The position numbers and the translations under genes are program-made. Source: Flavisolibacter longurius (lineage in GTDB: Bacteria > Bacteroidota > Bacteroidia > Chitinophagales > Chitinophagaceae). Taken from it: a stretch of DNA of 64,000 bases. Shown one piece after another: positions 4,533-59,920 of the stretch. Each line of letters starts with the position of its first letter. Position 1 is the first letter of the stretch. The notes under the pieces were generated by a model that ran no database searches, was not told the origin of the DNA, and saw only the letters and a list, made by a program, of their open reading frames with translations. The DNA lies in NCBI GenBank assembly GCA_013327885.1, contig JABUMY010000001.1:186001-250000 (forward strand), read 5' to 3'.

Positions 4533-4535
4533 GGA

Positions 4536-4565: not shown

Positions 4566-4619
4566 AACGTGTAAAAGGCATCATACCAAAATGGCTACTT
4601 GCTATTCACTCACCACTCA

Positions 4620-6266
4620 CTACTTCACTCCTTTTTCCGCCATGATCCTATTCAGCCAGCGTAGCATCAAAAAGCACATGGCGGCGGCGGCCATCAGCAG
4701 GGCAAAATTCAGCCAGAAATAATTGGCTTTGTTGCTGTAGGTATCCCACAGCGTTGCCAGCACACCCGACAATTTATTGCCAATGGACGTGGCCAAAAAC
4801 CAGCCACCCATCATCAGCGAGGTAATGCGCACAGGGCTTAGTTTCGATACCAGCGAGAGACCCATTGGACTGAGAAACAATTCGCCAATAGTGATGACAC
4901 CATAAGAAGCAAACAGCCAGGCCACGCTGGCCTTCTCACCACCGTTGTTGCTGGCATACACCGCGGCTACCATCACCAATGCCGATAAGCCGGAAATAAA
5001 CAATCCCCAGGCAATTTTGGTAGCGGTTGATGGTTCGCGGTTGCGGCGGCGCAGGAAACTAAAGAAAGCCACGACCAGCGGCGTTAGCACGATCACCCAA
5101 AACGGGTTGATAGACTGGCTAAGGTTGGTGGCCCAAAGCGTCATGGCGTTGCCATCCACCGGGCGGTTATCTTCTTTTACGTTGCGGAAATAATAGTGAT
5201 AATTCTCTTCCCGCAATACGTTGCCGTCTTCTTTTTGGATGCGGAACTGTTCATCGTAAACAGGCACATCCCGCCTGGTATACGATAAGGTATCGGCCAG
5301 CCGCAGACCAGAGAAAATTTCACCGGTTACACCACTTACTTCCCGGTTGGTATAGCGGTCGGCCCAGTTGTTCAGCGCCGATCCGTTTTGCTTGAACACG
5401 GCCCAAAAAAGAATCACCACGGCAAAGATGGCCAGCAGCGCAGCAATGGGTCTGCGTTCACTTTTTTCCGCACCAAAATACAGCGAAGCAAAAAAGTAGA
5501 TCACCGGCAAACAGGCAAAGATGAAAGCATCGGTGGATTCGCTGCCCACCAGCGGATGACCCAGCAAAAGATTGGGCAGGTACCAGCCGGCCACGCCGGC
5601 AAGGAGCGAAGGCACCAGGATCAGCATCACGATCCGCGTCATGGACATATCGCCTTCCTTTACGCCTTTGATCACATCGTATTCTTTGTAATGCCTTGTG
5701 CCGATAAGAAACACGATCACGCCAATGAACATACCCACACCGGCGGCAATAAAGGCCGCTCCCCAGCCGTAAGTAATGTAAAGGGCGGCGCCAAAAAAGT
5801 TACAGATAAAGGCACCCACGTTGATGCCCATGTAAAAGATATTGTAGCCAACGTCTTTTTGCTTTTCGTACTGCGGGGTGGAATATACATTCCCCAGCAG
5901 GGTAGAAATATTGGGCTTGAAAAAACCGTTGCCGATCACCACCAAAAACATCGCCGCATAGAGCATACCCAGGTTGTGAATGGACATCAGGCAATACCCT
6001 ACCCCCATCATCAAGCCACCAATAACAATGGACTTGCGGTAACCCATATAGCGGTCGGCAAGAAGGCCACCGAGGAAAGGCGTTAAAAAAACAAGGGCGA
6101 TAAAGGTTCCGTACAGGTCAGCCGATTCGGCTTCGGTCATGGCAAAACCTTCTTTTACATCTTTTAGATAAAGCGTAAAAATCCCGATCATCAGGTAATA
6201 GCCAAAGCGTTCCCACATTTCGGAGAAAAAAAGAAAAGGCAGGGCCTTTGGATGTTGTTTCCACAT
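4620..6266 (-). CDS. POT family proton-coupled peptide transporter
   Basis: A 548-residue major-facilitator protein of the POT/PTR2 family, which imports di- and tripeptides with protons across the inner membrane. The proton-coupling ExxER motif is visible as EMWERFGYY (about residues 16-24). Family signatures GGLLADRYMGYRKSI and FYMGINVGAF follow. A C-terminal membrane block ends in LRWLNRIMAEKG. It lies 159 bases after another POT gene of the same orientation; a terminator between them suggests separate transcripts. An extended hydrophilic segment with DTLSYTRRDVPVYDEQF near the middle makes it longer than the shortest POT proteins. Specificity is not readable. Confidence 0.92.
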   Translation of the reverse strand: MWKQHPKALPFLFFSEMWERFGYYLMIGIFTLYLKDVKEGFAMTEAESADLYGTFIALVFLTPFLGGLLADRYMGYRKSIVIGGLMMGVGYCLMSIHNLGMLYAAMFLVVIGNGFFKPNISTLLGNVYSTPQYEKQKDVGYNIFYMGINVGAFICNFFGAALYITYGWGAAFIAAGVGMFIGVIVFLIGTRHYKEYDVIKGVKEGDMSMTRIVMLILVPSLLAGVAGWYLPNLLLGHPLVGSESTDAFIFACLPVIYFFASLYFGAEKSERRPIAALLAIFAVVILFWAVFKQNGSALNNWADRYTNREVSGVTGEIFSGLRLADTLSYTRRDVPVYDEQFRIQKEDGNVLREENYHYYFRNVKEDNRPVDGNAMTLWATNLSQSINPFWVIVLTPLVVAFFSFLRRRNREPSTATKIAWGLFISGLSALVMVAAVYASNNGGEKASVAWLFASYGVITIGELFLSPMGLSLVSKLSPVRITSLMMGGWFLATSIGNKLSGVLATLWDTYSNKANYFWLNFALLMAAAAMCFLMLRWLNRIMAEKGVK

Positions 6267-6378
6267 GGCGATCTTGTTTTGTTAGTCAGATGTTTAGTAC
6301 AAAAAGGATAAAAGCCAATGGTATGTTCTGCTGTTCAGGAACACGGATTGTCTTTTTGTTTTTGATTTCTGTAATAGA

Positions 6379-6406
6379 AAAGGGTGGCTAAATATAGCCA
6401 CCCTTT
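6379..6406 (-). terminator. Terminator between the two POT genes
   Basis: A perfect 12-bp stem (6379-6390 with 6395-6406, AAAGGGTGGCTA and its complement) around a 4-nt loop, 20 bases past the stop of the 6426-8174 gene. The T-tract on the minus strand is weak (TTTCTATTA). Confidence 0.75.
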
Positions 6407-6425
6407 GCACAAAGGATTTGCAAAA

Positions 6426-8174
6426 TTATTTTCCTGCATTCATCATTGTTTGCAGTTTGCGGGTGATGAGGAACAAAATAAGTGAAGCTGTACCCGCCAT
6501 AAACACAAACAACATAAAGAAGTCGTAGTTGTCCTTCATCTCGTAGCCGACAAAGGAAGTTGTTTTGCCACCCGATGGATAAAGAGCACTCAGGATGCCA
6601 GCCAGTTTGTTGGCGGCCGCATTGGCAAGAAACCAAACCGCCATCAGCAGGGACGCAAACTTGAGCGGTGCCAGCTTGTTCACCAGCGAAAGACCGATGG
6701 GCGACAGGCAGAGTTCACCCCAGGTATGAAGGGCGTACATGCCAATCAACCACATCATGCTCACCTTGGTGGTGGCCGAAACATCTTTTACGCCAAAAGC
6801 GATCCAGAGATAACCCAGCGCCAGCAGGAAAAGACCAATGGCCATTTTAGTAGGAGCTTCGGGCTCCCATTTACCCAGCTTTAACCAAAGCCAGGCAAAC
6901 ATTGGGGCAAAAAGAATAACAAAAAAGGAGTTGAGCGACTGAAACGTACTGGCCGGAATTTCGTTCAGCACCAGGCTTGCTTGGCCGCCTGTTGCCAGTG
7001 AATAAATGACCCAGGCCGTGCCCAGCACCAGGATCAAAATAATGATCTGCACACCATTGAGAAGCGATTTGTCGTTAGCCGACAGGTTCTTCACCGCCTT
7101 GCGCCAAAGCCGCAGGAAAAAGGCGATCAGTGCTACCAGTAACGCATACACCACGTAAATAGAAATGTTCCAGTTGACGGTTCTGTCGGTTTGCCTGTCG
7201 GCGAAAAGCGTTAACGAAGCGCCGGCCTGCTCAAACGCCGACCAGAAAAACACCACAAAAAAGGCCACGATGAAAATTACACTGATGCGCTGTTTCTCAG
7301 GACCGCTAAGCGATTTGTCGGAGAAAAGAATAAAGGCAATGAACAACACGGCGCCCAGCAAAAGGTAAGACAGGTAGCTGAACTGTGTAGCATCGACATA
7401 CAACAAGCCAATGGCCACCGCGGAAAATAAAAGAAGTCCGCCAACAACAAATAGCGGGTTCTGCCACTGCTTCGGTGCATCGGCTGCAGGTTCGCCCAAG
7501 GCAACACCTTGCGGGTTGCGGATGTATTTATCCTGGTAAACCTTTTGAATGACTACGCTGAGCAACATGCCAATACCCGCTACAAGAAAAGCCCATTTAA
7601 AATCGGCCGGATTGCCGGTATCGCCAACAATACCGCAGATCAGCGGTCCTAACATACCACCCACGTTGATGCCCATGTAAAAGATAGTATAAGCCGGGTC
7701 AATGCGACGGTCACCTTTGGGATAGAGTTGCCCTACCAGCGAAGAAATATTGGGCTTGAAAAAACCGTTACCCGCGATCATAAAACCAAGACCGGAGAAA
7801 AAAAGAAAGGTGGAAAGACCGGAGGAAGTTTCATAAAGTGATCCGCAGAAAAAGAGCAGGAATTCGCCAATGGCCATCAGCAGGCCGCCAATGATGATGG
7901 AGCGTTTGCTGCCCCAGTAGCGGTCGGCTATATAACCGCCGATGAGTGGCGTGAGGTACACAAGGCCTGTGTAGCTGCCGTAAAGGTTGGAGGCAAAGGC
8001 ATCATCAAAAAGAAGCGCCTTTGTCATGAAAAGGATGAGAATGGCCCGCATGCCATAGTAGTTAAAGCGTTCCCACATTTCGGTGGCAAACAACACGTAC
8101 AGCCCTTTCGGGTGACCTTTCGGGTTTTCCGAAAAGTCTGTTCTGATTTCATCGGAGGCTTTTATTTCCGGCAT
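6426..8174 (-). CDS. POT family proton-coupled peptide transporter
   Basis: A 582-residue POT/PTR2 protein, paralogous to the product of 4620-6266. The ExxER motif is EMWERFNYYGM (about residues 31-41), followed by GGYIADRYWGSKRSII and FYMGINVGG. These motifs support proton-driven di/tripeptide import at the inner membrane. The N-terminal 30 residues are hydrophilic and cytosolic. It diverges from purD, with a 124-base gap. The gene pair plus the OPT transporter suggests a peptide-using lifestyle, which is inference only. Confidence 0.92.
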   Translation of the reverse strand: MPEIKASDEIRTDFSENPKGHPKGLYVLFATEMWERFNYYGMRAILILFMTKALLFDDAFASNLYGSYTGLVYLTPLIGGYIADRYWGSKRSIIIGGLLMAIGEFLLFFCGSLYETSSGLSTFLFFSGLGFMIAGNGFFKPNISSLVGQLYPKGDRRIDPAYTIFYMGINVGGMLGPLICGIVGDTGNPADFKWAFLVAGIGMLLSVVIQKVYQDKYIRNPQGVALGEPAADAPKQWQNPLFVVGGLLLFSAVAIGLLYVDATQFSYLSYLLLGAVLFIAFILFSDKSLSGPEKQRISVIFIVAFFVVFFWSAFEQAGASLTLFADRQTDRTVNWNISIYVVYALLVALIAFFLRLWRKAVKNLSANDKSLLNGVQIIILILVLGTAWVIYSLATGGQASLVLNEIPASTFQSLNSFFVILFAPMFAWLWLKLGKWEPEAPTKMAIGLFLLALGYLWIAFGVKDVSATTKVSMMWLIGMYALHTWGELCLSPIGLSLVNKLAPLKFASLLMAVWFLANAAANKLAGILSALYPSGGKTTSFVGYEMKDNYDFFMLFVFMAGTASLILFLITRKLQTMMNAGK

Positions 8175-38165: not shown

Positions 38166-38774
38166 CTACAAAATATGCTGTTTCTGCAGTTCTTCTTTCA
38201 ATTGTGCCGGGCTTGTAAAACGGATGGATGAAATGCCAAGTTTTACAGCCGCTTCCACATTGCGCAGGTTGTCGTCAATAAAAACGGCTTCCTCTTTTTT
38301 AATTGCAAAACGGTCGAGTAAAAGCTGGTAAAATTCCGGAAACGGCTTGCGTGTTTTTTCATCGCCGCTCACCAGGCGTCCATCGAACCAGTGCAGGAAA
38401 TCATATTTCTGCAGGGCAATGGGAAACAATTCACCGCTCCAGTTGGTCAGCGCATACAACTTGTATTGGCCGCTCTCTTTCAGTTGCCGGAAGATCTCTA
38501 CGGTTTCGTGGATCGGTCCGCCCAGCATTTCTTCCCAGCGACCGTAGTATGCTTCAATGTATTCCTGCCATTCGGGGTGTTGGTCTACCAACATTTGCGT
38601 AGCTTCCTGCAGGCTGCGGCCGGCATCCTGTTCTTCATTCCAGTCAGACGTGCAGATCTCCGCAAAAAACTGCCTGCGTTTTGTTTCGTCTGTGATCAGC
38701 TTGTCAAAAACATAAGCGGGGTTCCAGTCGATAAGCACACCGCCAAGGTCAAAAATGATGGTGGTAACGGGCAT
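38166..38774 (-). CDS. HAD-superfamily hydrolase (tandem paralogue 1)
   Basis: A 202-residue HAD-IA phosphatase-like protein. Motif I is IIFDLGGVLIDWNP, motif II is YALTNWSGE, motif III is KTRKPFPEFYQLLLDRF, and motif IV is AVFIDDNLRNVEAA. The first Asp would form the phospho-enzyme intermediate. The small-molecule substrate is unknown. The upstream neighbour, also 202 residues, is a clear paralogue (shared RxxxW, DAGRSLQEATQ against DGGRSPQEGTA) two bases away, so the pair arose by duplication. Confidence 0.9.
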   Translation of the reverse strand: MPVTTIIFDLGGVLIDWNPAYVFDKLITDETKRRQFFAEICTSDWNEEQDAGRSLQEATQMLVDQHPEWQEYIEAYYGRWEEMLGGPIHETVEIFRQLKESGQYKLYALTNWSGELFPIALQKYDFLHWFDGRLVSGDEKTRKPFPEFYQLLLDRFAIKKEEAVFIDDNLRNVEAAVKLGISSIRFTSPAQLKEELQKQHIL

Positions 38775-38776
38775 GG

Positions 38777-39385
38777 TCAGGTTAAAATTTTAAGGGTTTG
38801 TAAATGGGTGCGTAGGTCTTCGGGTGAGGTAAATAAGATGCCATGGAGTCCAAGGCGTTTGCCGGTGGCTATATTGTCCCTGTTATCATCGATAAAAACA
38901 GCATTTCTAGGGTTGATGCCGAAGCGTTCAAACAACAGGTGATAAATGTTCTCGTCCGGTTTTTTCATGCTTTCTTCGCTGCTGATGATCTTGCCGTCAA
39001 ACCAGTTCATAAACGGAAAATGGGGCAGCGTACGCTGAAACAGTTCGCTGTTCCAATTGCTCAGTGCATAGACTTTGTAACCGGCTTCTTTTATTTCTTT
39101 CAGAATGGCTACCGAGCCTTCAATAGCGCCATCAAACATTTCTTCCCAGCGGTCGTAGAAAGCACGGATCGCCGATTCGTATTCGGGATATTGTTTCAGC
39201 AGGTCAGCAGTGCCTTCCTGCGGGGAGCGGCCGCCATCCTGCAACGTATGCCATTCCATGCTGCAGATATTTTGCAGGAAATGGTCGCGTTCCGCTTCGT
39301 CCGTAAATATCTTTTTGTACAGGTTGGCAGGGTCCCATTTTACCAATACATTCCCAAGGTCAAAAATAACAGTATCAATCTTCAT
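38777..39385 (-). CDS. HAD-superfamily hydrolase (tandem paralogue 2)
   Basis: A 202-residue HAD-IA protein with motif I VIFDLGNVLVKWDP, motif II YALSNWNSELF, motif III SMKKPDENIYHLLFERF and motif IV AVFIDDNRDNIATG. It is the upstream member of a tandem pair with 38166-38774, two bases apart, so the two are co-transcribed. It is probably a sugar-phosphate or nucleotide phosphatase, a guess from family only. Confidence 0.9.
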   Translation of the reverse strand: MKIDTVIFDLGNVLVKWDPANLYKKIFTDEAERDHFLQNICSMEWHTLQDGGRSPQEGTADLLKQYPEYESAIRAFYDRWEEMFDGAIEGSVAILKEIKEAGYKVYALSNWNSELFQRTLPHFPFMNWFDGKIISSEESMKKPDENIYHLLFERFGINPRNAVFIDDNRDNIATGKRLGLHGILFTSPEDLRTHLQTLKILT

Positions 39386-47406: not shown

Positions 47407-47479
47407 AGAAAATACGTCGGGGAGGGATTGTGAAAACTGGGGGAAAACCGTTAGGTACAGTGCTGGAACCTAATTTCTT

Positions 47480-48241
47480 TTATGATGGAAACTGGCTGGT
47501 AACAGTAAAGTCATGAAACCTGCATGCGCTGCCCGGAAGCAACGCTATGCTGGCAATATGCTGCTCATCAAGCTTGAAACTTTGTATATCCCAATCCTGG
47601 TTGCACCGGACAAGTTTGGCTTTTACCCTATTGGCACCGTTCAAACAGGGAATAGCGGTGAGTTCGTCAACTAAGCCAATTCCCGTAGCCTTTAACAGCG
47701 CTTCTTTTCGGGTCCAATAGGTGCAAAATAACTGGCGCTTATCCGGTGCTTCCTGTAAAGCTTCTTGTTCTTCCGGTGATAAACAAGCCGCAAAAAGATC
47801 TTCGGGGGAATCTATGTGGTTAATGGCTTCCACGTCCACGCCGCTTTCAGATAGACCCATAGAAAGCAGCACCCAATGGCCGGCATGCGAAAGGTTAAAG
47901 AAAATTGGTCTCTCCTCATTGGTTGAAAGAAAAGGCTTTCCGTTGCTGCCGGTTTTGATTTTTACCGATTCCGGTGGGGTACCGTAAAAATAACCAACCA
48001 AAGAGCGCAGCATTTTGCGGCCCAGCAAAAAACGATTCCTGTCCTCTGTTTGTACAAAGCGTGCAGCCCGTTGTTTTTCATCCGGCGGCAGTTCCTGTAA
48101 ATAATCATCCGGCGAAAACTGCAACGGATGGAGGGGTGCTCTCCATACATGAATGATCCCGTCCGCCAGGTGATTCGATGAGAGTGGCTCCCATATGATA
48201 TCATCCAACTGCGAGCAGGTAACCGTAACCGTTTCTGTCAT
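47480..48241 (-). CDS. Sfp-type 4'-phosphopantetheinyl transferase
   Basis: A 253-residue enzyme that moves the phosphopantetheine arm of CoA onto carrier proteins. The metal site is GVDVEAINH (about residue 113), followed by YWTRKEALLKATG (about residue 162), the two signatures of the Sfp group. Length fits Sfp rather than AcpS. Its ATG overlaps the NRPS stop by ATGA, so translation is coupled and it very likely activates the three carrier domains of this cluster. Confidence 0.93.
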   Translation of the reverse strand: MTETVTVTCSQLDDIIWEPLSSNHLADGIIHVWRAPLHPLQFSPDDYLQELPPDEKQRAARFVQTEDRNRFLLGRKMLRSLVGYFYGTPPESVKIKTGSNGKPFLSTNEERPIFFNLSHAGHWVLLSMGLSESGVDVEAINHIDSPEDLFAACLSPEEQEALQEAPDKRQLFCTYWTRKEALLKATGIGLVDELTAIPCLNGANRVKAKLVRCNQDWDIQSFKLDEQHIASIALLPGSACRFHDFTVTSQFPS

Positions 48242-51200
48242 ATCAGCGAAGGTTCGGAATGGAAGGTCTTCTGCGCTAGTATCCTGCTTTCTGTTTTACC
48301 GTCGTCCAGGCAGCGTTGCAACACGGCGCCAGTTGTGCCGCTGTTCTCATACGCAAAAATTTCGCTGTGTATGCCCGGTACATCGTAGATCTTAATCTCA
48401 CCCTTGACGAAGGGACGCCAGCCCAAATATTGCTCGTCATGGGTATAACGGATTCGCTGGCCGGCCCGCAACAAACAAACATCGCCTTCGTAAGGTGCTG
48501 GCTTGTATTTTTTGCCTGCAGCGATACAGCGTTTTTCAAGTTCCGCCGCAATGTAAAAAGGATCGGTCTTGGGACCTACCAGGTCACGCTTTGCTTTCAC
48601 CAATGTTTCGGTCAGCTTCAGCTTTTCGTAACGAATCTTTCCCTTCGGGTCTTTCAGGAAATAGCTGATATCATGCGTTTTCCTCCGGGCGAACTGCATC
48701 CAGCTTTTGAACTGCCTGGCAAAAATGGCATCCGGCTCCTGGGCTTTGTTGGCCTCCGTATCAATCAATACCAGTTTCTTTATTTCTTTGCCCATTTGCT
48801 GCATTTGCCTTGCCATTTCAAAGGCTACCAGTCCGCCAAAGCAATAGCCCATCAGGATGTAAGGCCCGTTCGGGTTTTGCCGCAGAATGGCTGCCACGTA
48901 AGAAGCCGCTATCTCCTCCACATTGTCCGGCATTTTGCCCTTGCCCGTGAGGTCTTTGGCGCGGAGGCCGAAAATGGGTTGCTCCGGATGCAGGTGTTTT
49001 ACCAGCAGCGGAAGACCAAACACATTGCCCAGGGCGCCATGCACATAATAGAACGGTACCCGTGTGCCTCCCGGACGTACCGGTACCAGGCAGTCATCGT
49101 CGCCATCATCCGTATTGGTTTGGAGCCTTGCCGCTATTTTTTCTACGGTTGAATGCTCGTATAAAATGGCCAGCGGCAACCGGATGCCGGATTCTTTTTC
49201 AATCAACCGCATCATCTTTACGGCTAACAACGAGTGTCCGCCCAGGTCGAAAAAATCATCCTGCCGTCCGATGTTATCAATCCCTAATACTGTACGCCAT
49301 GCATCCATCACGATCTTTTCCTGTGGGGTTGCCGGCTGCGTTGTCGCTGCTTCTTTTTTTGTGTTGTTTACGTCAACATCGGGTAGTGCATTTTTGTCGA
49401 TTTTACCGTTAGGCGTAACCGGTAGTTTATCCAATACAATAATTTCATTGGGCACCATATAGGCCGGCAGGCTTTTCTTCAGCGCTTCCTTGCATTGAAC
49501 CGCAAAATCCTGCCGGTCCTGGTGGTGCACACCGGGGACTTGAACCACATAGGCAAGCAAGGCAACATGACCACCAGGTCGCTGCTTGGTGACCACTACG
49601 GCCTGGCCGATCTGAGGCTGTTGCAACAGGCAGGCTTCAATTTCCTCGGGCTCTATCCGGTAGCCGCGGATCTTTACCTGCTGGTCAATTCTGCCCAAGC
49701 ACTGGATCTCTCCATTTGGTAAAAGCTTTCCTAGATCGCCGGTGCGGTAAAGCAACCCGTTGTTGGCAAATCGATTGACAACAAACTTTTCTTTCGTCAG
49801 GTCCGGGCGGTTGAGATAGCCACCGGCCACCCCATCGCCGCCAATATAAATTTCACCGGTCCCGTTCACCGCTACAGGGTTGCGCTCTTTGTCGAGGATA
49901 TAAAGCTGCGTATTGGCAATGGGCCGCCCAATGGTGATGATGTCATCGAGTAGCGAAACTTTCTTGATCGCAGACCAAACCGTTGTTTCGGTGGGTCCGT
50001 AAAGATTGTATAGCGAGGTACAGCGAAGAAGCAAGGCATCTGCCAGGTTTTTCGAAAGGGCTTCACCCCCGCAACAAATGGTTTTAATGGCTTGTGCTTT
50101 TGACCAACCTGCATCCAGCAGCATTTGCCAGGTTGATGGCGTTGCCTGCATCACGGTGGGACGCAGTTGCTTTATCGCCTCCCGTAGCAAGAAGCCGTCT
50201 TTTGCTGTTTCCGTATCTACCAGTTGCAACACCGAACCACTCAGCAGCGGCAAGTAAAGTTCCAGGCAGGAAATGTCGAAGGAAATGGTGGTGACTGCAA
50301 GCAAGGTGTCTGATTCCGTTAGGCGGAGTGAGCTTTGCATGCTGCACAAAAAATTCACCAGGTTGTAATGCCGCACCGGCACTCCTTTGGGCTTGCCGGT
50401 TGACCCGGATGTATACAGCAGGTAAACACATTGGTCGCTGCTCACCGAAAGCGGGATGTTTTCCTTTGCATAAGCCGTCCTGTTTTGCCAGGCATCTTCT
50501 GCTACAAGTATCCTGGCTTGCAGGTCAAATTTAGTTTGATAGGTATGCGAAACGACAACCGTTTTCACACGTGCATCCCGCAGCATATAATTGATACGGT
50601 CGCCGGGATACGTAGGATCAATGGGAAGATAAGCTGCACCGGTTTTCATCACCGCCAGCAACAGGGCCACCAGTTTTGGTGACCGGTCCAGCAACAACCC
50701 CACCGTATCGCCGGGCTTAACGCCGGCTTCCTGCAACAGCCTTGCCAATTGGTTGGCTGCTTCTTCCAGTTCTCCGTAGGTAAGCTTTTCGTTTTTATAG
50801 GTGACAACCACTTGGTCGGGAAAGCGGCTCGCCTGCCGGCTGATCAACTGGTGCAGCGGCGTTTCTTTCGGATACGCTTGTTCCGTAGCATTCAGCTTGT
50901 CATAAGCGGCCCGTATTTTACGTGTATCGGTTAACGATAGCTGCCTGATGGATGCTGAGGAATGGCTGATGAGGGATTGAAGCAGGTAGTCAAATTCGCC
51001 CATCCACCGTTGAATGGTAGATGCCTGGAACAACTGCGTGTTGTACGACCATTCAAACGTAAGTGCGTCCGCTTTGCCGTTTATGTTCAGGAAAATTTCA
51101 AAGGCTTCGAAGGCTCTCGGGTTGGATATTTTTTCGTGTGTCAGCCCATAAAAAGCCACCTTGTTATCCATGCCCATATCGATGTTGAAAACAACCGGCA

Positions 51201-52308
51201 CCAACGGCACACGGGAAGGGTCGCGACGGATAGGGAGCTTTTGCAGTAAGCTGCCAAAGGTGAACAACTGGTGATCGTAAGCATCCAGCACAACCGACTT
51301 TTGTTTTTTCAGAAAGTCGAGAAAGCTTTGCTCTGCATCCACTTCGCTGCGCAGCGGCAGGAGGTTTACGCAATGTCCCACCAGGCCATAATGGCCGGTT
51401 GCCGACTGTCCGGCAGCAGGCAAACCAATGACGATCTTTTCCTGCACCGAAAGCTTGTGAATAAACAGTTCGAATGCCGCTAAAAGTGTGGTTACAAAAC
51501 TGCATCCTGCTTTCGCCCCCAACTGCTTTAAAGCTTTGGTGGTTTCCGGCAGCAAAGCAACATCCAGTCGCTGGCCGGTAAAGGTGCGTACTGTGGGCCG
51601 CGGAAAATCGGTTGGCAGGTCCAGCACAGGCACATCGTTTTTGTATTGGTCGATCCAGTACTGTTCGATCTCCTGGTATCGTTTGCTGCCGGCAAACTTT
51701 TTCTGCTCCAGCGCATACGACAGCAGGGAAGGAGAGGCTATGAGTTGCGGCACCTCGTTCCTGGCAAAGGCAGAATAAAGCTGGCCCAGTTCTTCCAGCA
51801 AAATGCCAAACGACCAGCCATCGCAAACAATATGGTGTGCGGTTAGGGTAAGAAGGTGCTGCGCTGCCTCCAGTTTGTGCAACGCGATTCTAAAAAGAGG
51901 TCCTTCTTGCAGGTTGAAGGCAGTTGTTGCCTCCTGTTGCAGGAACTGTTGTAAAGAAGCTTGTTGTTCGTTTGCCGACAGGTGTGTAAGGTCCTGGCAA
52001 TCCACCGCCAGGGGGTAAGGTTTGCCTATGAGAAGATACGTTCCGTCGGCACTGAACGTTGCTCTTAATGCTTCGTGGCGAGCCACCAGTTCCTGCAATG
52101 CCTGTTGCAGTGCAGGCAAGTTAAGTGATCCTTTTAGTCGCAACGAATTGGATTCGTTATACGACCGGTTCGCGTCTTCGCCGCCAATGAGGCAGGCAGT
52201 AAGAATCTCCAGTTGCGGTTCGGTAGCCGGAACGCCGGCTTCCAGCTCCATTTGCGCAAACGGGTCAAAGTCTACCGGAACAAATCCTGGGCTTTCTTTT
52301 CTGTTCAT
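48238..52308 (-). CDS. NRPS module C-A-PCP-TE (predicted Gly)
   Basis: A terminating peptide synthetase module of about 1356 residues from the ATG at 52308 (MNRKESPGFVPVDF). A frame back to 52416 overlaps the upstream gene. Order: condensation, residues about 10-440, with HHIVCDG (about 157); adenylation, about 470-990, with YTSGSTGKPKG (about 631) and the closing PNGKIDKNALP; carrier FFDLGGHSLLAVK (about 1023); thioesterase about 1080-1345. Pocket residues read against GrsA give D-I-L-Q-C-G-L-V-W-K, close to the glycine code DILQLGLIWK. The TE nucleophile motif is GYCFGG, with Cys in place of Ser, and a likely His lies in GIHSEIF. It starts 11 bases after the upstream synthetase stop and feeds on its product. 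Confidence 0.92.
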   Translation of the reverse strand: MNRKESPGFVPVDFDPFAQMELEAGVPATEPQLEILTACLIGGEDANRSYNESNSLRLKGSLNLPALQQALQELVARHEALRATFSADGTYLLIGKPYPLAVDCQDLTHLSANEQQASLQQFLQQEATTAFNLQEGPLFRIALHKLEAAQHLLTLTAHHIVCDGWSFGILLEELGQLYSAFARNEVPQLIASPSLLSYALEQKKFAGSKRYQEIEQYWIDQYKNDVPVLDLPTDFPRPTVRTFTGQRLDVALLPETTKALKQLGAKAGCSFVTTLLAAFELFIHKLSVQEKIVIGLPAAGQSATGHYGLVGHCVNLLPLRSEVDAEQSFLDFLKKQKSVVLDAYDHQLFTFGSLLQKLPIRRDPSRVPLVPVVFNIDMGMDNKVAFYGLTHEKISNPRAFEAFEIFLNINGKADALTFEWSYNTQLFQASTIQRWMGEFDYLLQSLISHSSASIRQLSLTDTRKIRAAYDKLNATEQAYPKETPLHQLISRQASRFPDQVVVTYKNEKLTYGELEEAANQLARLLQEAGVKPGDTVGLLLDRSPKLVALLLAVMKTGAAYLPIDPTYPGDRINYMLRDARVKTVVVSHTYQTKFDLQARILVAEDAWQNRTAYAKENIPLSVSSDQCVYLLYTSGSTGKPKGVPVRHYNLVNFLCSMQSSLRLTESDTLLAVTTISFDISCLELYLPLLSGSVLQLVDTETAKDGFLLREAIKQLRPTVMQATPSTWQMLLDAGWSKAQAIKTICCGGEALSKNLADALLLRCTSLYNLYGPTETTVWSAIKKVSLLDDIITIGRPIANTQLYILDKERNPVAVNGTGEIYIGGDGVAGGYLNRPDLTKEKFVVNRFANNGLLYRTGDLGKLLPNGEIQCLGRIDQQVKIRGYRIEPEEIEACLLQQPQIGQAVVVTKQRPGGHVALLAYVVQVPGVHHQDRQDFAVQCKEALKKSLPAYMVPNEIIVLDKLPVTPNGKIDKNALPDVDVNNTKKEAATTQPATPQEKIVMDAWRTVLGIDNIGRQDDFFDLGGHSLLAVKMMRLIEKESGIRLPLAILYEHSTVEKIAARLQTNTDDGDDDCLVPVRPGGTRVPFYYVHGALGNVFGLPLLVKHLHPEQPIFGLRAKDLTGKGKMPDNVEEIAASYVAAILRQNPNGPYILMGYCFGGLVAFEMARQMQQMGKEIKKLVLIDTEANKAQEPDAIFARQFKSWMQFARRKTHDISYFLKDPKGKIRYEKLKLTETLVKAKRDLVGPKTDPFYIAAELEKRCIAAGKKYKPAPYEGDVCLLRAGQRIRYTHDEQYLGWRPFVKGEIKIYDVPGIHSEIFAYENSGTTGAVLQRCLDDGKTESRILAQKTFHSEPSLI

Positions 52309-52318
52309 TGGTTGGTGT

Positions 52319-55300
52319 TTATTCGTACAGGTCAACTTGTAGATACTTGCCGGGTCTTTCAGGGTCGTGAACGAACCATGCCGGGTTGCCCTGCAGGTCT
52401 TTTCCCAGGCGGGCACCTTCTACCGGCGGCACCTGGAAGCGGGTGAAATCTTCCGCTGCAACGGCATTTGTTGCCGGAAAAAAACCGGCCTTGATCAGGT
52501 CCTGGATACTTTCGCGGAAAGCCCGTACAACAGCCTGCAGGTCTTCCTGCGTATGCGCTTCCGTCATGTAGCAGGGAAACAGGTCCATGATGTGAATGCC
52601 TTTCAACCGCATCAGCGTAAACAGCAATTCGCTGTAGGGAACTTCCTCTTTGAATTTTATTTTCCAGAGGGAACCAAAATGAACAATGTGCAACGGCATG
52701 CCATGCTGTTCGCAAATAGCATTCAACGTGCCGGCCAGCCAGTCTGTGTTCCGGGTAAGGCCTTGCTGCAGCGAAGGTCCTTTCTCTTTTAGGTAAAGTA
52801 GGGATGCTTTTGCGGTGGCCAAGGCCAGGGGGTGACGTACAAACGTGCCGGCAAAATAAGTAACACCAACTTCCGGTACGGAAGCATCGCCAAACTGCCA
52901 CCAGCCACCATCCAATGCATCCATAAATTTTTTAGTGCCGGCAATGGCACCAATCGGCAAGCCGCCACCAATCACTTTTCCATAGGTAGCAAGATCGGCC
53001 CTGATGCCGGTAATACCCTGAACACCTTGGGGATGCATGCGGAAACCCGTGATGATCTCGTCGAAGATCAAAGCGGAACCGGTGATTTCGGTCAGCTTGC
53101 GGAGATCTTTTAAAAACGAAAAAGGCTGAAATTCCGGCCGGCGGCTTTGTACCGGCTCAACCAATACAGCGGCAATTTCGGATGCTCTTTCTTTGATGAT
53201 GCGTAAGCTTTCTTCCGAACCGTAATCCAGGATGAGCATATTCTGCACCGCCTCCGGCAGAATGCCTGGCGCTGCCGGAAATGATTTTAATTTTTTGCTG
53301 CCGCGAACAATCACTTCGTCTACAATGCCATGATAGGATCCGTTGAAGGCAACGATCAGGGGCCGGCCGGTAACGGTACGGGCTATGCGCATAGCACCAA
53401 GAACAGCCTCGGAACCGGTGCTGCAAAGTGCCGACCTGTCGAAGCCTGTGGCTTCGCAAACCAGCTGGCAAACCTCACCTGCCAGTTCGTGTTGCGGGCC
53501 AATTTCATAACCTTTGTCAACCTGCTCTTTCAAGGCACGAACAATAGCCTCCGGCTGATGGCCCAGCATGTTGGACCCAAAGCCGTTGAGCACATCAATG
53601 TATTCGTTGCCGTCTACGTCCCACAAACGACTCCCTTTTGAGCGGTTGATCACAATGGGATAAACAATCTCTTTTGTCAGCGGCTTAAAGCCTGATACCA
53701 CCCGCGGGTCGGCCATTTGTGACCGGTGTTTTTGCGTGTAGGCCTTGCTGCCCGCTGTTTTTTTTGTGTACTCGTGTACCAGGGATTCCAAAAAGCTTTT
53801 TTGCGCCGGCGTTAGTGTGGTTACCTGCTTGTCGATGCGGGCCGTAGCACCAAAGGGCTTTTTGATTTCGATGGCTTCTTCGGGTGTCAGTTCCGTGTTG
53901 GTTGTAGACTTACTGTTATCCCTAACCGTAAATGATTGCGGCGTTGGTGCAGACACGGGCATGGGTGCTGGTACAGGTGAGCCTTGTAACAAGGCCACTT
54001 GTTTTGCCAGCAGTTGCAGTTGCTGTGCAATAAGGCCTAGTGGCGTATCACCGTTTGTCGAAAAATTGAACGGCGGTGCCTGGCTTTGGATTTGTTGCAC
54101 CAGTTGCGGCGCCGGCATAGACTGTGAAGGTGCTTCTTCCGGTGGTAAATTGGCATCAATAAAAGCGGCAAGCCGATCCAGGTTACTATAGTCTTCGTTC
54201 AGTTGGCGGAAGGTGATGGCCAGCTTAAATTCTTTTTTCAGAATCAACGCGATCTGTGTCAGGAGCAGGGAGTCGAGTCCCATCTCCATGAACGAAACCT
54301 CCGGCTCAACACCGTTCATTTCGATGCCGGACGCATCTTCCAATATTGTTTTGATCTTTTCGATCAGTGCCTCTTTTCTCATTTGTTGCTTTTGGGGTTG
54401 GCTGTTTTCAGGGTGAATGGTTTCGGGCACAGGAGAGTGGTTGTTGACAGCAGCAGGAATTGGGGTCTGTGCTGCTTTTTCGATCCAATACCGTTTGCGG
54501 TCGAATGCATAGGTAGGAAGGCGAAGGTTTTGTTTTTTCTGCCCGCCGTTAAAGGCAGTCCAATCCGGCTCCGCGCCGTGCAGCCATAACTGGCCAAGGG
54601 CTTTTAACATGCTTTCGTCGGCAGGCGAATTTTCTGCTCCCTCCAGGCTTGCCACAATTGCTTTTTGTGACGTTTGCTGGCGGGCCAGGGTTGCCAGCAC
54701 ATTGCGTGGTCCTGTTTCCAGCAAGCTATAATTGCCGTCGCTGCAAAGGCATTTGATCGCATCCGCAAAACGAACCGTTACTCGCAGGTGGTTGGCCCAA
54801 TACGTACTGCTGGTGGCTTCTTCATTCGCTAGTAATTGGCCGGTAACGGTTGAGATGATCGGTTTCGTTGGGTTGGCTAGTTGTACGGACCGAACCACTT
54901 CTTCAAAAGGCGCAATGGCAGGGTCCATCATGTGGGAATGAAAGGCATGACTGGTTTGCAACAGCTTGTTGACAATGCCTTTTTCTTCCAGTGTTTTGGA
55001 AAAGTTTTCGATGGCGCTATCCGGTCCGGCTACCACGCACAGGTTAGGACTGTTTACCGCCGCAAGCGAAATCTCCGGCGGAAGCATTGCTTCAATAGCT
55101 GCTGAACCTTTTCTTACTGAAAGCATGCTGCCTTTGGGCAGGTCGCTCATGAGACGTCCGCGTACCGCTACCAGCTTTAATGCATCTGCCAAGCTAAATA
55201 CACCTGCCAGGTGCGCCGCTACAAATTCGCCAATGCTATGGCCAATGAAGGCAGCAGGTTTGATGCCCCAGCTTTGCCATACTAGCGCCAATGCATATTC

Positions 55301-58300
55301 GATACAAAAAAGTGCCGGTTGTGCAAAACGGGTATCCTTCAATACCTGTTCCTCTTCTTCGCTGGCTGTTTGCGGGTAGATAATGGTTCGAATGTCTTTA
55401 CCAATTTCCGCTTGCAGCAGGTCAGCACAGGTATCGATCGCTTCGCGGAAAACCGGTTCTTTTTCGTACAAGGCACGACCCATGTCCAGGTATTGCGAGC
55501 CCTGGCCGGGAAAAAGAAAGGCTACACTGCCAGCCGCTTCTTTTACAAGCTTTGTTTCCGAAGCCGTCACCGGTGCTTCCAGTTTTTGCACCAATTCGTC
55601 GATTGTTTCCGCTACCAAAAAACGCCTGGCGCCAAACTGTTGCCGGGCACTCTGTAAGGTGTGGGCAACGGCAGTAATGTCAACAGCCTTGTTTTCCCGT
55701 AAATAGGCAGCCAGCTTTTTTGCATAAGCATCCCGACTTTTTTCTGTTTTGGCGGAGAGAAGAATAAGTTGTTTGGTACGAACCGGCGTATGCTGCTGTT
55801 TCGAATTTTCGTACTCCTCCAATACCACGTGCACATTGGTGCCGCCAACGCCAAAAGAACTGACACCGGCCCGCCTGGCTGTTTCCGATTCCCAGCTGCG
55901 GAGTGTATTGTTTACATAAAACGGGCTGTTCTCAAAATCTATGTTTGGATTCGGGTTCTTGTAAAAAAGTGAGGCGGGCAGTTGTTGGTGGTGCAGGCTT
56001 AAAACGGTTTTGATCAAGCCTGCCACACCGGCCGCCGTTACCAGGTGACCCATGTTGCTTTTGATGGAACCGATGGCGCAAAACTGTTTTTTCGCCTGCT
56101 GTCCAAACGCTTTTTTCAGGCCTTCCATTTCAATAGGATCACCAAGCGGTGTGGCCGTGCCATGTGCTTCTATATACGAAATGGTAGATGGTGCAACACC
56201 GGCATCGGCTATTGCCATTTTAATGGCCGTTGCTTGTCCATCGGCACTGGGCGCCGTAAAGCTTCCCTTGCCACCACCGTCGTTGTTGATACCCACGCCT
56301 TTGATGACTGCATAAATAAAATCGCCATCTTTTTCGGCTTCTTTCCTGCTTTTCAAAAGCACTACCCCGGCGCCATCGCTAAAGACGGTTCCTTTTGCAG
56401 CCGCGTCAAAAGGGCGGCAATGCCCATCGTCGCTCATCATAGCGCCTTCCTGGTACAGGTGGCCGCTGGCCACCGGCACCGTTACAATGGCACCACCCGC
56501 GAGGGCCATGGTGCATTGTCCTTTGCGGATGCTTTCCACTGCCTGCGCAACCGCCAGCAAGGAGGTGGAGCAGGCCGATTGCACCGTAACCGCAGGCCCT
56601 TTGAGATTGAGAGTATAAGCAGTGCGGGAAGAAATATAGTCTTTGTCGTTAAAGGTCATTACCTGCAAAAAGCCGGCTTTGTCAACCAGGTCAGGACGAC
56701 TTGATACGTTGTTCAGGTAATACGAGTTGAAACGGCAGCCGGCAAAAACACCCACCGATGCGTTGTTATTTTCGGTAGCATAACCTGCGCCTTCCAATGC
56801 CTCCCATGCAATCTCAAGGAAGATGCGTTGCTGCGGGTCCATCAGCTCGGCCATCTTTGGATTGATACCAAAAAAGGCCGCGTCGAATTCTTCTACATTG
56901 TCTACAACGCCACGGACCTTTACATAATTCGGATCGTTGCGCAGGCTTTGCGGAATGGAGGCGTCCAATTCATTGTCGGTAAAAAAGCGGGTGGTTTCTT
57001 TGCCCTCTTTCAGAATCGTCCAAAGGTCCTCCACCGTGCTGGTGCCGGGAAAACGAACGGCCATGCCAATTACAGCAACTTCATGATCGGCGGAAGCGTG
57101 AAGCGCTTCTGTTGCCGGTAAGAAATTTTCTTCGTCAGCGTTGTCCAGTGCATTTGCCATCTTACCAATGGTTCCCAACTGGTAAAGTTTGGTCACCGGC
57201 AGGTCGTAGTTGTACAAGGCTTTTAGTTGCGCAATGGTTTTTATGGCCAGGAGCGAACTTCCACCCAGGCTAAAAAAGTTATCGTTTACACCAACTTTGT
57301 CAAGATCCAGCAAGGTCTCCCACAACGCTGCCATTCTTTTTTCCGATACCGTTTGCGGTGCTTTGTACAGCACTGGCAGATCCGGCCTTTTTGAAACAAC
57401 ATCAGGCAAGGACTGGCGGTCAATTTTTCCATTGCTGGTGAGGGGCAAAGAGGAGAGCGGGACAATGCGGGAGGGAATCATATAGTCCGGCAACTTGCCC
57501 TGCAGGAACTGGAGCAGCCCGTTTCGGTCAAACTCGCTTTCCGAAACAATATAGGCCACCAATAACTTGTCGCCTACCTTGTTTTGTTTTGCCATCACCA
57601 GGCATTGAAGGATGGATGGATGTTGCAGGATCGCCGCCTGCACTTCTCCGGGTTCAATACGGTATCCCCGGATCTTTACCTGGTCGTCTATCCTGCCCAG
57701 GAATTCAATGTTACCATCGGGCAGCCACCGGACAAGGTCACCCGTTTTATAGAGTCTTCTGTTTTCTTCCGGATGAAAAGGGTCCGCCACAAAACGTTCA
57801 GCGGTCATGGCTTCGCTATTCAGGTAGCCTTTTGCCACGCCATCGCCGCCAATGTATAATTCTCCCGCTACGCCAATGGGACAAAGCTGTTTGGCCTCCG
57901 AAAGAATATAAACCCGTGTGTTGGAAAATGGCTTGCCCAATGGAACCTGCCTGCTGTAATCGATATGCGTACCAACTACATGCAGCAGTTTGCCAATGGT
58001 TGTTTCGGTTGGTCCGTAATGATTGATGACCTGGCAGGAGGTGCCGGTGGCCTGAATTGCTTTCACGGCAGCAACCGGTAGGGCTTCACCACCAAAAATG
58101 ATTTTTTTAGCTGGTAAGAGGAGTTTGTCGCCAATAGAAAGGGCTTGCCAATGCGAGGGAACGATCTTCACACAGTCGATAACGTGTGTGGCAAAATAGT
58201 CGTGCATCAGGGCCGGATTGCTTGCCCGTTCTTTGGAAAGAATATGCAGGGTGCCGCCGCAAAAAAGCGAACCGAAAACAACCGTGTGGCCAAGATCGGC

Positions 58301-59539
58301 GGCAAAGGTAGAAACCACGGCAAAGGACCGGCAATCACTAACCTGAATCTTTTCTTCTAGCCCGTAGAGATAATCCAGCAGGTTGCCATGTGTTACCATA
58401 ACACCTTTGGGCTTGCCGGTAGAGCCAGATGTGTAAATAACATAGGCCAGGTCTTCCGGTGTAACAACAACTTTGGGTAATTCAGAAGAAGAAATTTTGG
58501 GTAGTTCTTCTTCGCTATTGATCAAAACTTGCTGCCTTTCTTTTTTCTCTAAAAAAGTTGATAAGCTGGCTGCATTTGCATTATCTGTTATGATAACGTT
58601 TGCCGCAGTATCATCAAGGATAGCCAATAGCCTCTCCTTTGGTATTTCCGGATCGATGGGTACATAGGCGCAACCTGCTTTCAAAATTCCCAACATTCCT
58701 GCTATGAATCCGGTGCCCCTTTCCATGCAGATGGGTACCAAAGTGCCGGGTTGTACACCCCTTTTTAGCAAAGCGCTGGCTATTTGCGTAGAGCGAAGAT
58801 CCAACTCCCCATAATCCAGGCTTTCCTTTTCATACACCACGGCAACCGTGTCAGGACGATCATTTACATGCGATGTAAACCTATCAAGGATTGATTGGCC
58901 CGTTGGATACGCAACATGGCTATGATTCAATCCGTCTACGAGGAGATTTTTTTCTTTCTCCGGTAGAATGTTGATCGTGTCAATGCTTTGTTCGGGTGTT
59001 GTCGTGATGGAACGCAAGGCTTCGTGGAAACGTTCCAGAAGAATTTCTGCCGTGAGGTTATGCTGTGTTGTTGTCAGGTTATCGATCGTGATCACTACTG
59101 CCTCCGTGCCAAATGTGACAGTAATTATTCGGTGCAGGGTGGGTACCGATCGTATCCAAACCGGTACAAGATCCTTTTCTGATTCCGTACTCTTTTCAAC
59201 GGTGCTGCTATCCTTAAAGAGAAGTATATCTGTCCAGGCAGATTCAGTACCGGTTTCATTTTGAGCAATAAACGCACTGCATTGCCTTGCCAACGCAGGA
59301 AATGATTCGGATTCGGGAAATTTTTTGAAGAGGGCATTTAAACTTATAATATCCGTACCAGTCTCAGCAACTACATTTTTCTGATGCCGGTAACCAACGC
59401 GAATATGGTCTTGCTCAAATGAACGGTAGTAGACAAGTTGAAAAGCAGCTACAAAAACTGCTGGTAGCTCAATTGCATAGCGGTCTGCAACCCTTTGCAA
59501 TGCTTGTATGGCGTCTTTATCAAGTCGCAATGATTTCAT
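52319..59539 (-). CDS. Hybrid NRPS-PKS-aminotransferase (predicted Asp, malonyl-CoA)
   Basis: A 2406-residue assembly-line protein. Residues about 1-200 look like the C-terminal half of a condensation domain without HHxxxDG. Adenylation follows (about 215-720; YTSGSTGKPKG near 366), then a carrier (FFSLGGSSLLAIK, about 755). The ketosynthase has ACSTSL (about 990), EAHGTATPLGDP and SNMGH. The acyltransferase has GHSIGE (about 1433) and HAFH, the malonyl signature. A second carrier is MGLDSLL (about 1754). The C-terminal class III aminotransferase (about 1900-2390) has FDEIITGFR and YGKVIGGG (PLP Lys about 2186). The pocket code D-L-T-K-I-G-H-I-G-K is close to DLTKVGHIGK (Asp). No KR, DH or ER is present. 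The aminotransferase placement parallels MycA/ItuA, where it makes a beta-amine. Confidence 0.93.
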   Translation of the reverse strand: MKSLRLDKDAIQALQRVADRYAIELPAVFVAAFQLVYYRSFEQDHIRVGYRHQKNVVAETGTDIISLNALFKKFPESESFPALARQCSAFIAQNETGTESAWTDILLFKDSSTVEKSTESEKDLVPVWIRSVPTLHRIITVTFGTEAVVITIDNLTTTQHNLTAEILLERFHEALRSITTTPEQSIDTINILPEKEKNLLVDGLNHSHVAYPTGQSILDRFTSHVNDRPDTVAVVYEKESLDYGELDLRSTQIASALLKRGVQPGTLVPICMERGTGFIAGMLGILKAGCAYVPIDPEIPKERLLAILDDTAANVIITDNANAASLSTFLEKKERQQVLINSEEELPKISSSELPKVVVTPEDLAYVIYTSGSTGKPKGVMVTHGNLLDYLYGLEEKIQVSDCRSFAVVSTFAADLGHTVVFGSLFCGGTLHILSKERASNPALMHDYFATHVIDCVKIVPSHWQALSIGDKLLLPAKKIIFGGEALPVAAVKAIQATGTSCQVINHYGPTETTIGKLLHVVGTHIDYSRQVPLGKPFSNTRVYILSEAKQLCPIGVAGELYIGGDGVAKGYLNSEAMTAERFVADPFHPEENRRLYKTGDLVRWLPDGNIEFLGRIDDQVKIRGYRIEPGEVQAAILQHPSILQCLVMAKQNKVGDKLLVAYIVSESEFDRNGLLQFLQGKLPDYMIPSRIVPLSSLPLTSNGKIDRQSLPDVVSKRPDLPVLYKAPQTVSEKRMAALWETLLDLDKVGVNDNFFSLGGSSLLAIKTIAQLKALYNYDLPVTKLYQLGTIGKMANALDNADEENFLPATEALHASADHEVAVIGMAVRFPGTSTVEDLWTILKEGKETTRFFTDNELDASIPQSLRNDPNYVKVRGVVDNVEEFDAAFFGINPKMAELMDPQQRIFLEIAWEALEGAGYATENNNASVGVFAGCRFNSYYLNNVSSRPDLVDKAGFLQVMTFNDKDYISSRTAYTLNLKGPAVTVQSACSTSLLAVAQAVESIRKGQCTMALAGGAIVTVPVASGHLYQEGAMMSDDGHCRPFDAAAKGTVFSDGAGVVLLKSRKEAEKDGDFIYAVIKGVGINNDGGGKGSFTAPSADGQATAIKMAIADAGVAPSTISYIEAHGTATPLGDPIEMEGLKKAFGQQAKKQFCAIGSIKSNMGHLVTAAGVAGLIKTVLSLHHQQLPASLFYKNPNPNIDFENSPFYVNNTLRSWESETARRAGVSSFGVGGTNVHVVLEEYENSKQQHTPVRTKQLILLSAKTEKSRDAYAKKLAAYLRENKAVDITAVAHTLQSARQQFGARRFLVAETIDELVQKLEAPVTASETKLVKEAAGSVAFLFPGQGSQYLDMGRALYEKEPVFREAIDTCADLLQAEIGKDIRTIIYPQTASEEEEQVLKDTRFAQPALFCIEYALALVWQSWGIKPAAFIGHSIGEFVAAHLAGVFSLADALKLVAVRGRLMSDLPKGSMLSVRKGSAAIEAMLPPEISLAAVNSPNLCVVAGPDSAIENFSKTLEEKGIVNKLLQTSHAFHSHMMDPAIAPFEEVVRSVQLANPTKPIISTVTGQLLANEEATSSTYWANHLRVTVRFADAIKCLCSDGNYSLLETGPRNVLATLARQQTSQKAIVASLEGAENSPADESMLKALGQLWLHGAEPDWTAFNGGQKKQNLRLPTYAFDRKRYWIEKAAQTPIPAAVNNHSPVPETIHPENSQPQKQQMRKEALIEKIKTILEDASGIEMNGVEPEVSFMEMGLDSLLLTQIALILKKEFKLAITFRQLNEDYSNLDRLAAFIDANLPPEEAPSQSMPAPQLVQQIQSQAPPFNFSTNGDTPLGLIAQQLQLLAKQVALLQGSPVPAPMPVSAPTPQSFTVRDNSKSTTNTELTPEEAIEIKKPFGATARIDKQVTTLTPAQKSFLESLVHEYTKKTAGSKAYTQKHRSQMADPRVVSGFKPLTKEIVYPIVINRSKGSRLWDVDGNEYIDVLNGFGSNMLGHQPEAIVRALKEQVDKGYEIGPQHELAGEVCQLVCEATGFDRSALCSTGSEAVLGAMRIARTVTGRPLIVAFNGSYHGIVDEVIVRGSKKLKSFPAAPGILPEAVQNMLILDYGSEESLRIIKERASEIAAVLVEPVQSRRPEFQPFSFLKDLRKLTEITGSALIFDEIITGFRMHPQGVQGITGIRADLATYGKVIGGGLPIGAIAGTKKFMDALDGGWWQFGDASVPEVGVTYFAGTFVRHPLALATAKASLLYLKEKGPSLQQGLTRNTDWLAGTLNAICEQHGMPLHIVHFGSLWKIKFKEEVPYSELLFTLMRLKGIHIMDLFPCYMTEAHTQEDLQAVVRAFRESIQDLIKAGFFPATNAVAAEDFTRFQVPPVEGARLGKDLQGNPAWFVHDPERPGKYLQVDLYE

Positions 59540-59661
59540 TGTTGGACGTACGGATTAAGATTTATTCTCGTTTCAGATTTAATTTTTCTCATAACAAACC
59601 GGTTGTCATCTCGCTCCTGGCACAAACACCAAACACAAAAAGCCTGTTTAAAGGCTTTCAT
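59536..59661 (-). CDS. Possible 41-residue leader peptide before the hybrid synthetase
   Basis: A short frame begins MKAFKQAFCVWCLCQERDD and ends in a TGA that overlaps the synthetase ATG (ATGA). It is Cys-rich (CVWCLC) and basic. A terminator-like hairpin lies over its first codons. It could be a leader peptide of an attenuator, a coupling ORF, or chance. No family match is known to me. Confidence 0.35.
   Translation of the reverse strand: MKAFKQAFCVWCLCQERDDNRFVMRKIKSETRINLNPYVQQ
59637..59658 (-). terminator. Terminator-like hairpin upstream of the synthetase operon
   Basis: On the minus strand AAAGCCT (59658-59652) pairs with AGGCTTT (59645-59639), and the T-run TTTTTG follows. It lies about 100 bases before the synthetase start and has no obvious upstream minus-strand gene to terminate, so attenuation is possible. 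Confidence 0.55.
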
Positions 59662-59895
59662 AGTTGAATTGGTTTTAACACGGTAAGGTGCTGGTTACAG
59701 AAAACGAGCAAAAAGTTTGTAGCAAGCAATCGCTTGTGCGAAAAAATCTGTTTTGAATTATTGGCAATAATAAACCAATAAGAGGCTAAGGTAATTGCAT
59801 AAAATTCAAAATGCAAGTATTTCCATCTTTCCTTTCCCCCTTCGGCACTGAACCTGAGCTCATTGAGCAACTATCCCAACAACGGCATTAGCAGG

Positions 59896-59903
59896 TACAT
59901 TTG
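59896..59903 (+). promoter_or_regulatory. Likely -7 element of the AlkC-like gene
   Basis: TACATTTG matches TAnnTTTG exactly, 17 bases before the ATG at 59921, giving a very short leader. No well-spaced -33 TTTG is seen. Confidence 0.45.
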
Positions 59904-59920
59904 CCCTTCAATTGCACACA

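Follow-up and report, generated by a model that had tools for sequence, protein, structure and literature searches.

What does a compact hybrid of nonribosomal peptide synthetase (NRPS) and polyketide synthase (PKS) in Flavisolibacter longurius assemble, and how did it arrive where it now lies? The system in question is an operon of three tightly packed genes at positions 47480-59539, on the minus strand, of a 64,000-nucleotide stretch of contig JABUMY010000001.1 (assembly GCA_013327885.1, positions 186,001 to 250,000), which is called the window below and to which all coordinates refer. A first-pass annotation of this DNA had proposed an Asp-acetate-Gly product with an extra amine. The reading favoured here, to which we assign a probability of about 0.62, is that of a complete three-gene hybrid NRPS-PKS, probably acquired by transfer, which would make such a product with a second amine.

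Open reading frame (ORF) and Pfam analysis delimits the three genes as follows. Gene 1 (52319-59539, 2406 aa) encodes adenylation (A), peptidyl carrier protein (PCP), ketosynthase (KS), acyltransferase (AT), acyl carrier protein (ACP) and aminotransferase (AMT) domains, in that order, with Pfam matches to AMP-binding, KS, AT, class-III aminotransferase and two PP-binding stretches. Gene 2 (48238-52416, 1392 aa) encodes condensation (C), A, PCP and thioesterase (TE) domains (Pfam Condensation, AMP-binding, PP-binding and Thioesterase), while gene 3 (47480-48241, 253 aa) encodes an Sfp-type phosphopantetheinyl transferase (PPTase; Pfam ACPS and AASDHPPT_N). The call for gene 2 begins at a GTG inside gene 1, with an overlap of 98 bp; an in-frame ATG at 52308, leaving a 10-bp gap after the stop of gene 1, is the likelier start. 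Genes 2 and 3 overlap by 4 bp. Every catalytic motif sought in the three proteins is present and Pfam finds no ketoreductase in them, so that the previously proposed domain order and the missing ketoreductase both stand. Scans for promoters and terminators returned 16 and 23 sites, respectively, compared to 11.0 (standard deviation 3.6) and 20.0 (standard deviation 4.0) in shuffled sequence. All domains described below are encoded on the minus strand.

The predicted substrates follow from the two A domains. The first, A1 (57395-58894), carries the Asp-like pocket code DLTKIGHIG and the Lys of the NGKID motif, while the second, A2 (49372-50871), carries the Gly-like code DILQCGLVW; alignment thus recovers the codes that had earlier been read by eye. 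The choice of pocket columns is checked by relatives, in which these columns read DFWNIGMVH, the canonical code for Thr, and DAFWLGGTF, a code resembling that for Val. The assignment of Asp to A1 and Gly to A2, as in the first-pass annotation, is a prediction from the established code tables. A His at the seventh code position is an Asp-type residue, and it is common to A1 and most members of the supported Asp-type clade. In a tree of 182 A domains (this and all other trees were built with FastTree only), A1 falls in a 14-row clade of Asp-type codes or their derivatives with support 100. A2 falls in a loose Gly-like class, which accounts for 70 of the 90 second-module A domains, that of the window counted.

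The remaining domains of protein 1 are those expected for a single round of extension followed by amination. PCP1 (57134-57337, LGGSSLL) is followed by a KS (55805-57097) with intact Cys, His and His motifs (ACSTS, HGTATPLGD and SNMGHL), whose nearest relative is that of Spirosoma utsteinense, locus L068 (79%). The AT (54650-55534) possesses GHSIGE and HAFH motifs; HAFH is a malonyl signature, and the malonyl-type AT that had been proposed is upheld on this rule. The ACP (54140-54394, MGLDSLL) precedes a class-III, GSA-like aminotransferase of the MycA type (52472-53857), for which the nearest solved structures are those of the MycA AMT domain, i.e., 6kfu (E 6.1e-122) and 6kfm (E 2.5e-121), matched along the length of the domain; the next PDB matches, to stand-alone aminomutases, reach only E 2.9e-54, in agreement with the kinship to MycA suggested before. 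Its motifs FDEIITGFR and YGKVIGGG supply the Asp and the pyridoxal phosphate Lys, respectively, both of which are invariant in an alignment of 15 family members. The AMT domain of MycA aminates a beta-keto chain, and that of the window resembles it throughout. However, the starter of MycA is a fatty acid, whereas the line in the window starts with an amino acid and would therefore yield a vicinal diamine. Iturin and mycosubtilin synthases likewise begin with a fatty acyl ligase and form a long lipopeptide line, unlike the window system with its amino-acid A domain at the start, two proteins and three carriers. According to Milano et al. (PMC3870968), the amine donor of MycA is Gln, and the same has been suggested there for many related domains.

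In the proposed pathway, A1 would load Asp onto PCP1, after which the KS would add malonate carried by the ACP, giving a 4-amino-3-oxoadipoyl thioester. The aminotransferase fused to these domains would then convert the 3-keto group to an amine, generating a vicinal 3,4-diaminoadipoyl thioester, to which protein 2, with its C domain (50902-52179, HHIVCDG) and PCP2 (49123-49311, LGGHSLL), would add Gly. Finally, chain release by the TE would give either a linear acid or a small lactam, the carriers having been activated by the dedicated PPTase (motifs GVDVE and WTRKEALLKA). Colinearity thus predicts 3,4-diaminoadipoyl-glycine, or a cyclised form of it, as the product; the linear compound would have the formula C8H15N3O5 and a neutral mass of 233.10, and the lactam would be lighter by 18. 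Transfer between the two proteins may involve a conserved C-terminal tail of protein 1 (52322-52417, ARLGKD..GNPAWFVHDP..PGKYLQV), which is probably a linker or docking stretch toward the C domain; a single fused protein takes the place of the two in loci L035 and L068.

The TE (48382-49074) carries a Cys at the nucleophile position (GYCFGG), with the Asp and His present. Among 92 aligned TE domains (four duplicates counted), the nucleophile is Ser in 88 and Cys in three, i.e., those of the window, of L023 and of a separate NRPS at L041, and one domain is cut. The nearest solved relative, ABBFA_003403 (4zxh, E 1.7e-21), a C-A-PCP-TE protein of Acinetobacter baumannii that is not known to contain a PKS or an aminotransferase, also has a Cys nucleophile (GWCFGG), although its similarity to the TE of the window is moderate only. 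The Asp of LIDTEAN in the window aligns with the IDT of 4zxh, which suggests an ordinary position for the triad Asp. This would set it apart from the TEs of ObiF and SulM, which use a Cys nucleophile to form beta-lactones or beta-lactams; their catalytic triad is described as unusually arranged, and SulM also has the motif Gln-Cys-Asn (PMC11298585). The TE of the window shares the Cys but reads Tyr-Cys-Phe; as the SulM motif is missing from it and its triad Asp may be an ordinary one, no strained ring is claimed.

A feature peculiar to the window copy is an N-terminal extension of protein 1 of about 215 aa (58895-59539), which bears a weak likeness to the latter half of a C domain and is without its catalytic motif. 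It had been described as a partial C domain, a description for which the resemblance speaks faintly (Pfam Condensation, E 0.00066 over residues 156-200, under the curated cut-off; hhalign, E 0.021, probability 2, 179 columns); HHxxxDG is lacking in the extension, and its fold prediction is unusable (pLDDT 34). The A match begins at residue 221 of protein 1, compared to residues 2-116 in 94 other lines, a set that includes duplicates and lines cut at contig ends. A counterpart of the extension was found in none of the 293 other genomes of the window's taxonomic family (E 1e-8) and in none of the relatives examined, nor was there a credible PDB match. A frameshift cutting off a whole Condensation domain was considered, but the upstream gap of 372 bp, which was not translated in all frames, is followed by a divergent gene and is too short for the missing half.

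A survey of related genomes places the operon in a family found across the Bacteroidota. Within the taxonomic family of the window, 16 of 294 genomes contain an AMT match at E 1e-60: the window itself, 14 whose matches are 64-70% identical and lie in ORFs spanning 2033-3451 aa, and one with a weak match confined to a short ORF. Sampling across the phylum gave matches at E 1e-150 in 14 of 395 genomes (window counted), from nine of 170 genera, one of them more distant (51% identical). A scan of genome contigs identified at least 584 stretches encoding AMT relatives, the best 80 of which are all from Bacteroidota, mainly Mucilaginibacter, Pedobacter, Spirosoma, Larkinella and Hymenobacter; no relatives were found in viral contigs. 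Removal of four duplicates (including L022 = L037, L025 = L070 and L024 = L072) from the combined 94 loci (14 plus 80) leaves 90 distinct loci, and 89 of these, with 90 lines, display the protein-1 layout with A first and AMT last, the 90th being cut by a short contig; this conservation partly reflects the selection of the 80 by aminotransferase similarity. The partner is C-A-T-TE (T, thiolation domain) in 57 of 86 ORFs and C-A-nMT-T-TE in 23, while six other layouts occur once each (two cut). Four of the 90 loci have no C-A-T-TE ORF after the line: L078 and L101 lie at contig ends, while L081 and L083 are not cut and the one C domain among the matches listed for their genomes (G321 and G323) lies 14 and 31 kb off. 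A PPTase-like ORF is present in 57 of 89 loci, window counted. The window copy has the domain order of the family in both proteins, as well as the conserved tail of protein 1. Five family loci (L025, L048, L053, L091 and L099) each contain two ORFs of one cupin_8/JmjC-like cluster, for which hydroxylation of the product is a possible role.

The first-pass annotation knew of no described compound with this assembly logic. However, the layout was tabulated in 2013 for Pedobacter heparinus C6XWU5 (A-CP-KS-AT-CP-PLP1; predicted Nrp-Mal-Gly-Pk; PMC3870968, Table 2), with no product given for that line in the available parts of the source. The C6XWU5 line and that of the window have in common the protein-1 layout, a GSA-type aminotransferase and a Gly in the predicted product, whereas the first amino acid of C6XWU5 is only a generic 'Nrp'; the likeness is one of layout. 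An antiSMASH cluster of NRPS, NRPS-like and T1PKS type has been noted in Mucilaginibacter aquariorum JC4, the strain of locus L098 (PMC9843747), and an NRPS-PKS cluster of Flavobacterium or Chitinophaga is described as essential for fungal suppression (Carrion 2019, as cited in PMC13211072). Our literature search found no product for the family. The operon is, then, a real, well-formed member of a known, widespread family without a found product; the chemistry first proposed for it is plausible, and its surprise is partly discounted by the earlier tabulation. What is new here is the switching of starter class, the foreign A core, the N-terminal extension, the Cys TE and the accessory nature of the operon. 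The Cys nucleophile, the accessory nature and the restriction of the extension to this copy had escaped the first-pass annotation.

The starter code varies widely within the family. Sorted into classes defined by the analysis itself, the first A domains of 92 lines, including the window, are Pro-like (46), Asp-like (8), Thr (4), Asn-like (4), Val (2), incomplete (1) or of other codes pooled together (27). Mapped onto a tree of KS plus AMT, whose 91 rows are all family members, with no outgroup, these classes require no fewer than 19 changes. On this tree the window is sister to L068 of S. utsteinense (support 99), and both belong to a 23-row clade (support 89) which otherwise comprises Spirosoma, Larkinella, Fibrisoma, Fibrella, Hymenobacter, Rudanella and a Cytophagales metagenome-assembled genome. 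When compared to L068 in blocks of 100 residues, identity over the aligned part of protein 1 drops to a minimum of 17% at residues 401-500, the pocket part of A1, as against 34-46% in the flanking blocks; in the KS it reaches 80-85%. With the Asp-coded L065 and L111 the pocket block shares 48-49% identity, though their KS is only 68-76% identical. As the pocket block is nearer to L065 and L111 while the KS is nearer to L068, there is good evidence, at the level of sequence, of A-core exchange, the Asp-type core of A1 in the window copy being foreign to the closest relative of its KS and AMT. Two family lines with differing starter codes lie close together in each of L034 (1-15726, the first line cut by the locus end) and L115 (3955-17244).

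The operon is present in only one of 18 genomes of the genus, five of the 17 operon-free genomes being less than 90% complete. In the nearest congener, L138 (isoleucyl-tRNA synthetase, IleRS, 93% identical), ileS and a HEAT gene are separated by about 160 bp, and homologous edges occur near window positions 47443 and 59906; the stretch 47443-59905 is missing from L138, the left edge being uncertain by about 25 bp. None of the seven congener regions fetched contains the operon, and the genes past ileS differ among them. This empty site, together with the position on the KS/AMT tree, favours transfer, and the operon was probably gained as a block, as far as sequence comparison can tell. In the comparison with L138 the three genes make up the entire insert, so that no further gene would have come with them. 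The neighbouring IleRS was rejected as a self-resistance duplicate, as it is the single genome match at E 1e-50 and is present in all 18 genomes of the genus. The HEAT gene and a nearby TonB receptor were likewise rejected as parts of the cluster, since the operon-free L138 has the HEAT gene beside ileS; its TonB receptor (89% identical) lies 4.7 kb past ileS. A TonB receptor directly follows ileS in L139, L140 and L141 and is 8.5 kb off in L142, while neither gene was found near ileS in L143 and L144, from which it follows that the ileS flank is variable in the genus. Elsewhere in the window, genes for an OPT oligopeptide transporter and for two peptide transporters of the POT family lie at 1507-8174, all on the minus strand, and two neighbouring HAD-type hydrolase genes of 202 aa each (38166-39385) are perhaps a tandem duplication. 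Contig C44 of the same genome bears another NRPS locus (193-206 kb), in which there are four condensation domains.

Several points weigh against an Asp-acetate-Gly diamine as the product. The seven family TEs that best match that of the window share only 36-38% identity with it, A1 shares just 48% identity with its nearest relative and a fork within the 14-row A1 clade has support 0, for which last two reasons the code is the main evidence for the specificity of A1. The N-terminal extension could influence A1, and loss from the other genomes is an alternative to gain. Moreover, no product or enzyme activity is known for the operon, and the literature search returned no case of amination of an amino-acid-derived beta-keto chain.

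Among competing explanations, the best surviving, though in our view still quite unlikely, is that the operon, instead of making a free small molecule, supplies a building block or cap for an extracellular polysaccharide. Among the matches listed, 31 of the 42 family loci (in 31 of 39 genomes) have a PF02397 sugar transferase within 50 kb, and 18 have one within 25 kb, as against one of 31 other NRPS loci with a neighbour within 50 kb. The sample was drawn from 40 of the 80 loci; their 39 genomes are for the most part isolate genomes with long contigs, none is from a locus after L095, and two of the 44 aminotransferase matches were set aside, being 43-47% identical and parts of larger NRPSs. 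The comparison draws on 150 listed PF02397 matches and on 55 of the Condensation rows listed, none of them beside a family locus or a repeat from a cluster already counted. The 31 control loci derive from 12 of the genomes, in 11 of which the family locus is linked, and several lie on small contigs, which biases them toward having no such neighbour; Fisher's test returns p 3e-10, not a true probability as the genomes are related. A single C domain was found, among the matches listed, in 12 of the 39 genomes, being the line's own in ten (in G298 assigned through locus L046) and lying 14 and 31 kb off in two. Furthermore, the line of Mucilaginibacter OK268 resides in a Wzx/Wzy-type cluster with a sugar transferase, OEP, an AAA_31 protein, Wzy, a flippase, glycosyltransferases, acyltransferases and a lone A-T-TE module, and the flanks of 89 loci contain two GT2 clusters (at 33 and 30 loci), a flippase-like cluster (14) and a GNVR-like cluster (13), as judged from one annotated representative each, the GNVR match being under its cut-off. 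However, the operon of the window has its nearest PF02397 match some 70 kb away (76 kb when measured from the AMT); only three of 15 line-bearing genomes of its taxonomic family, window counted, have one within 50 kb, a fourth being just outside. The related loci are, moreover, not independent, and no enzyme was identified that would attach the product to a polysaccharide. A search of titles and abstract openings found no report linking assembly lines to polysaccharides. Lone A-T-TE modules without a C domain occur near the line at L122 (11749-14406, in a polysaccharide locus) and L060 (15531-18155), and could transfer an amino acid directly to an acceptor.

The other explanations are improbable. 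A1 may take another residue, such as Asn or hydroxy- or methyl-Asp, with the assembly logic unchanged; Asn-like codes such as DATKVGEVG adjoin the Asp clade and the starter class changes often, but the His at the seventh position speaks for Asp, which leaves this option doubtful. It is about equally doubtful that the beta-keto thioester escapes the aminotransferase to give a product without the second amine, e.g., a keto or tetramate-like compound, as the general chemistry of aminoacyl beta-ketothioesters would permit, given that the AMT motifs are intact and their catalytic residues invariant. A silent or decaying acquisition, or a component of some larger line encoded elsewhere in the genome, would fit the patchy presence, the odd N-terminus and the NRPS on contig C44, but is hard to credit beside the intact motifs, the operon's own PPTase and TE and the same self-contained form seen in most of its relatives.

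The diamine reading therefore stands as the preferred one, and the patterns at the level of the family are a more interesting result than the chemistry of the window copy. If that chemistry is true, the operon would be a three-gene cassette for a vicinal diamino acid peptide, small enough to be expressed whole; as its starter domain is one that evolution already exchanges, it would be a tractable system in which to study diamine chemistry and to engineer A domains. More speculatively, and with the odds clearly against it, the family may consist of minimal amine-rich synthetases whose starter is repeatedly re-written by A-core exchange and whose native role, to go by gene location, is tied to extracellular polysaccharide loci, the vicinal diamino dipeptide decorating, capping or cross-linking a secreted polysaccharide, with a diversity like that of surface antigens, the window copy being a detached, transferred Asp version. 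The association with polysaccharide loci, if functional, would tie assembly-line enzymes to surface glycans.

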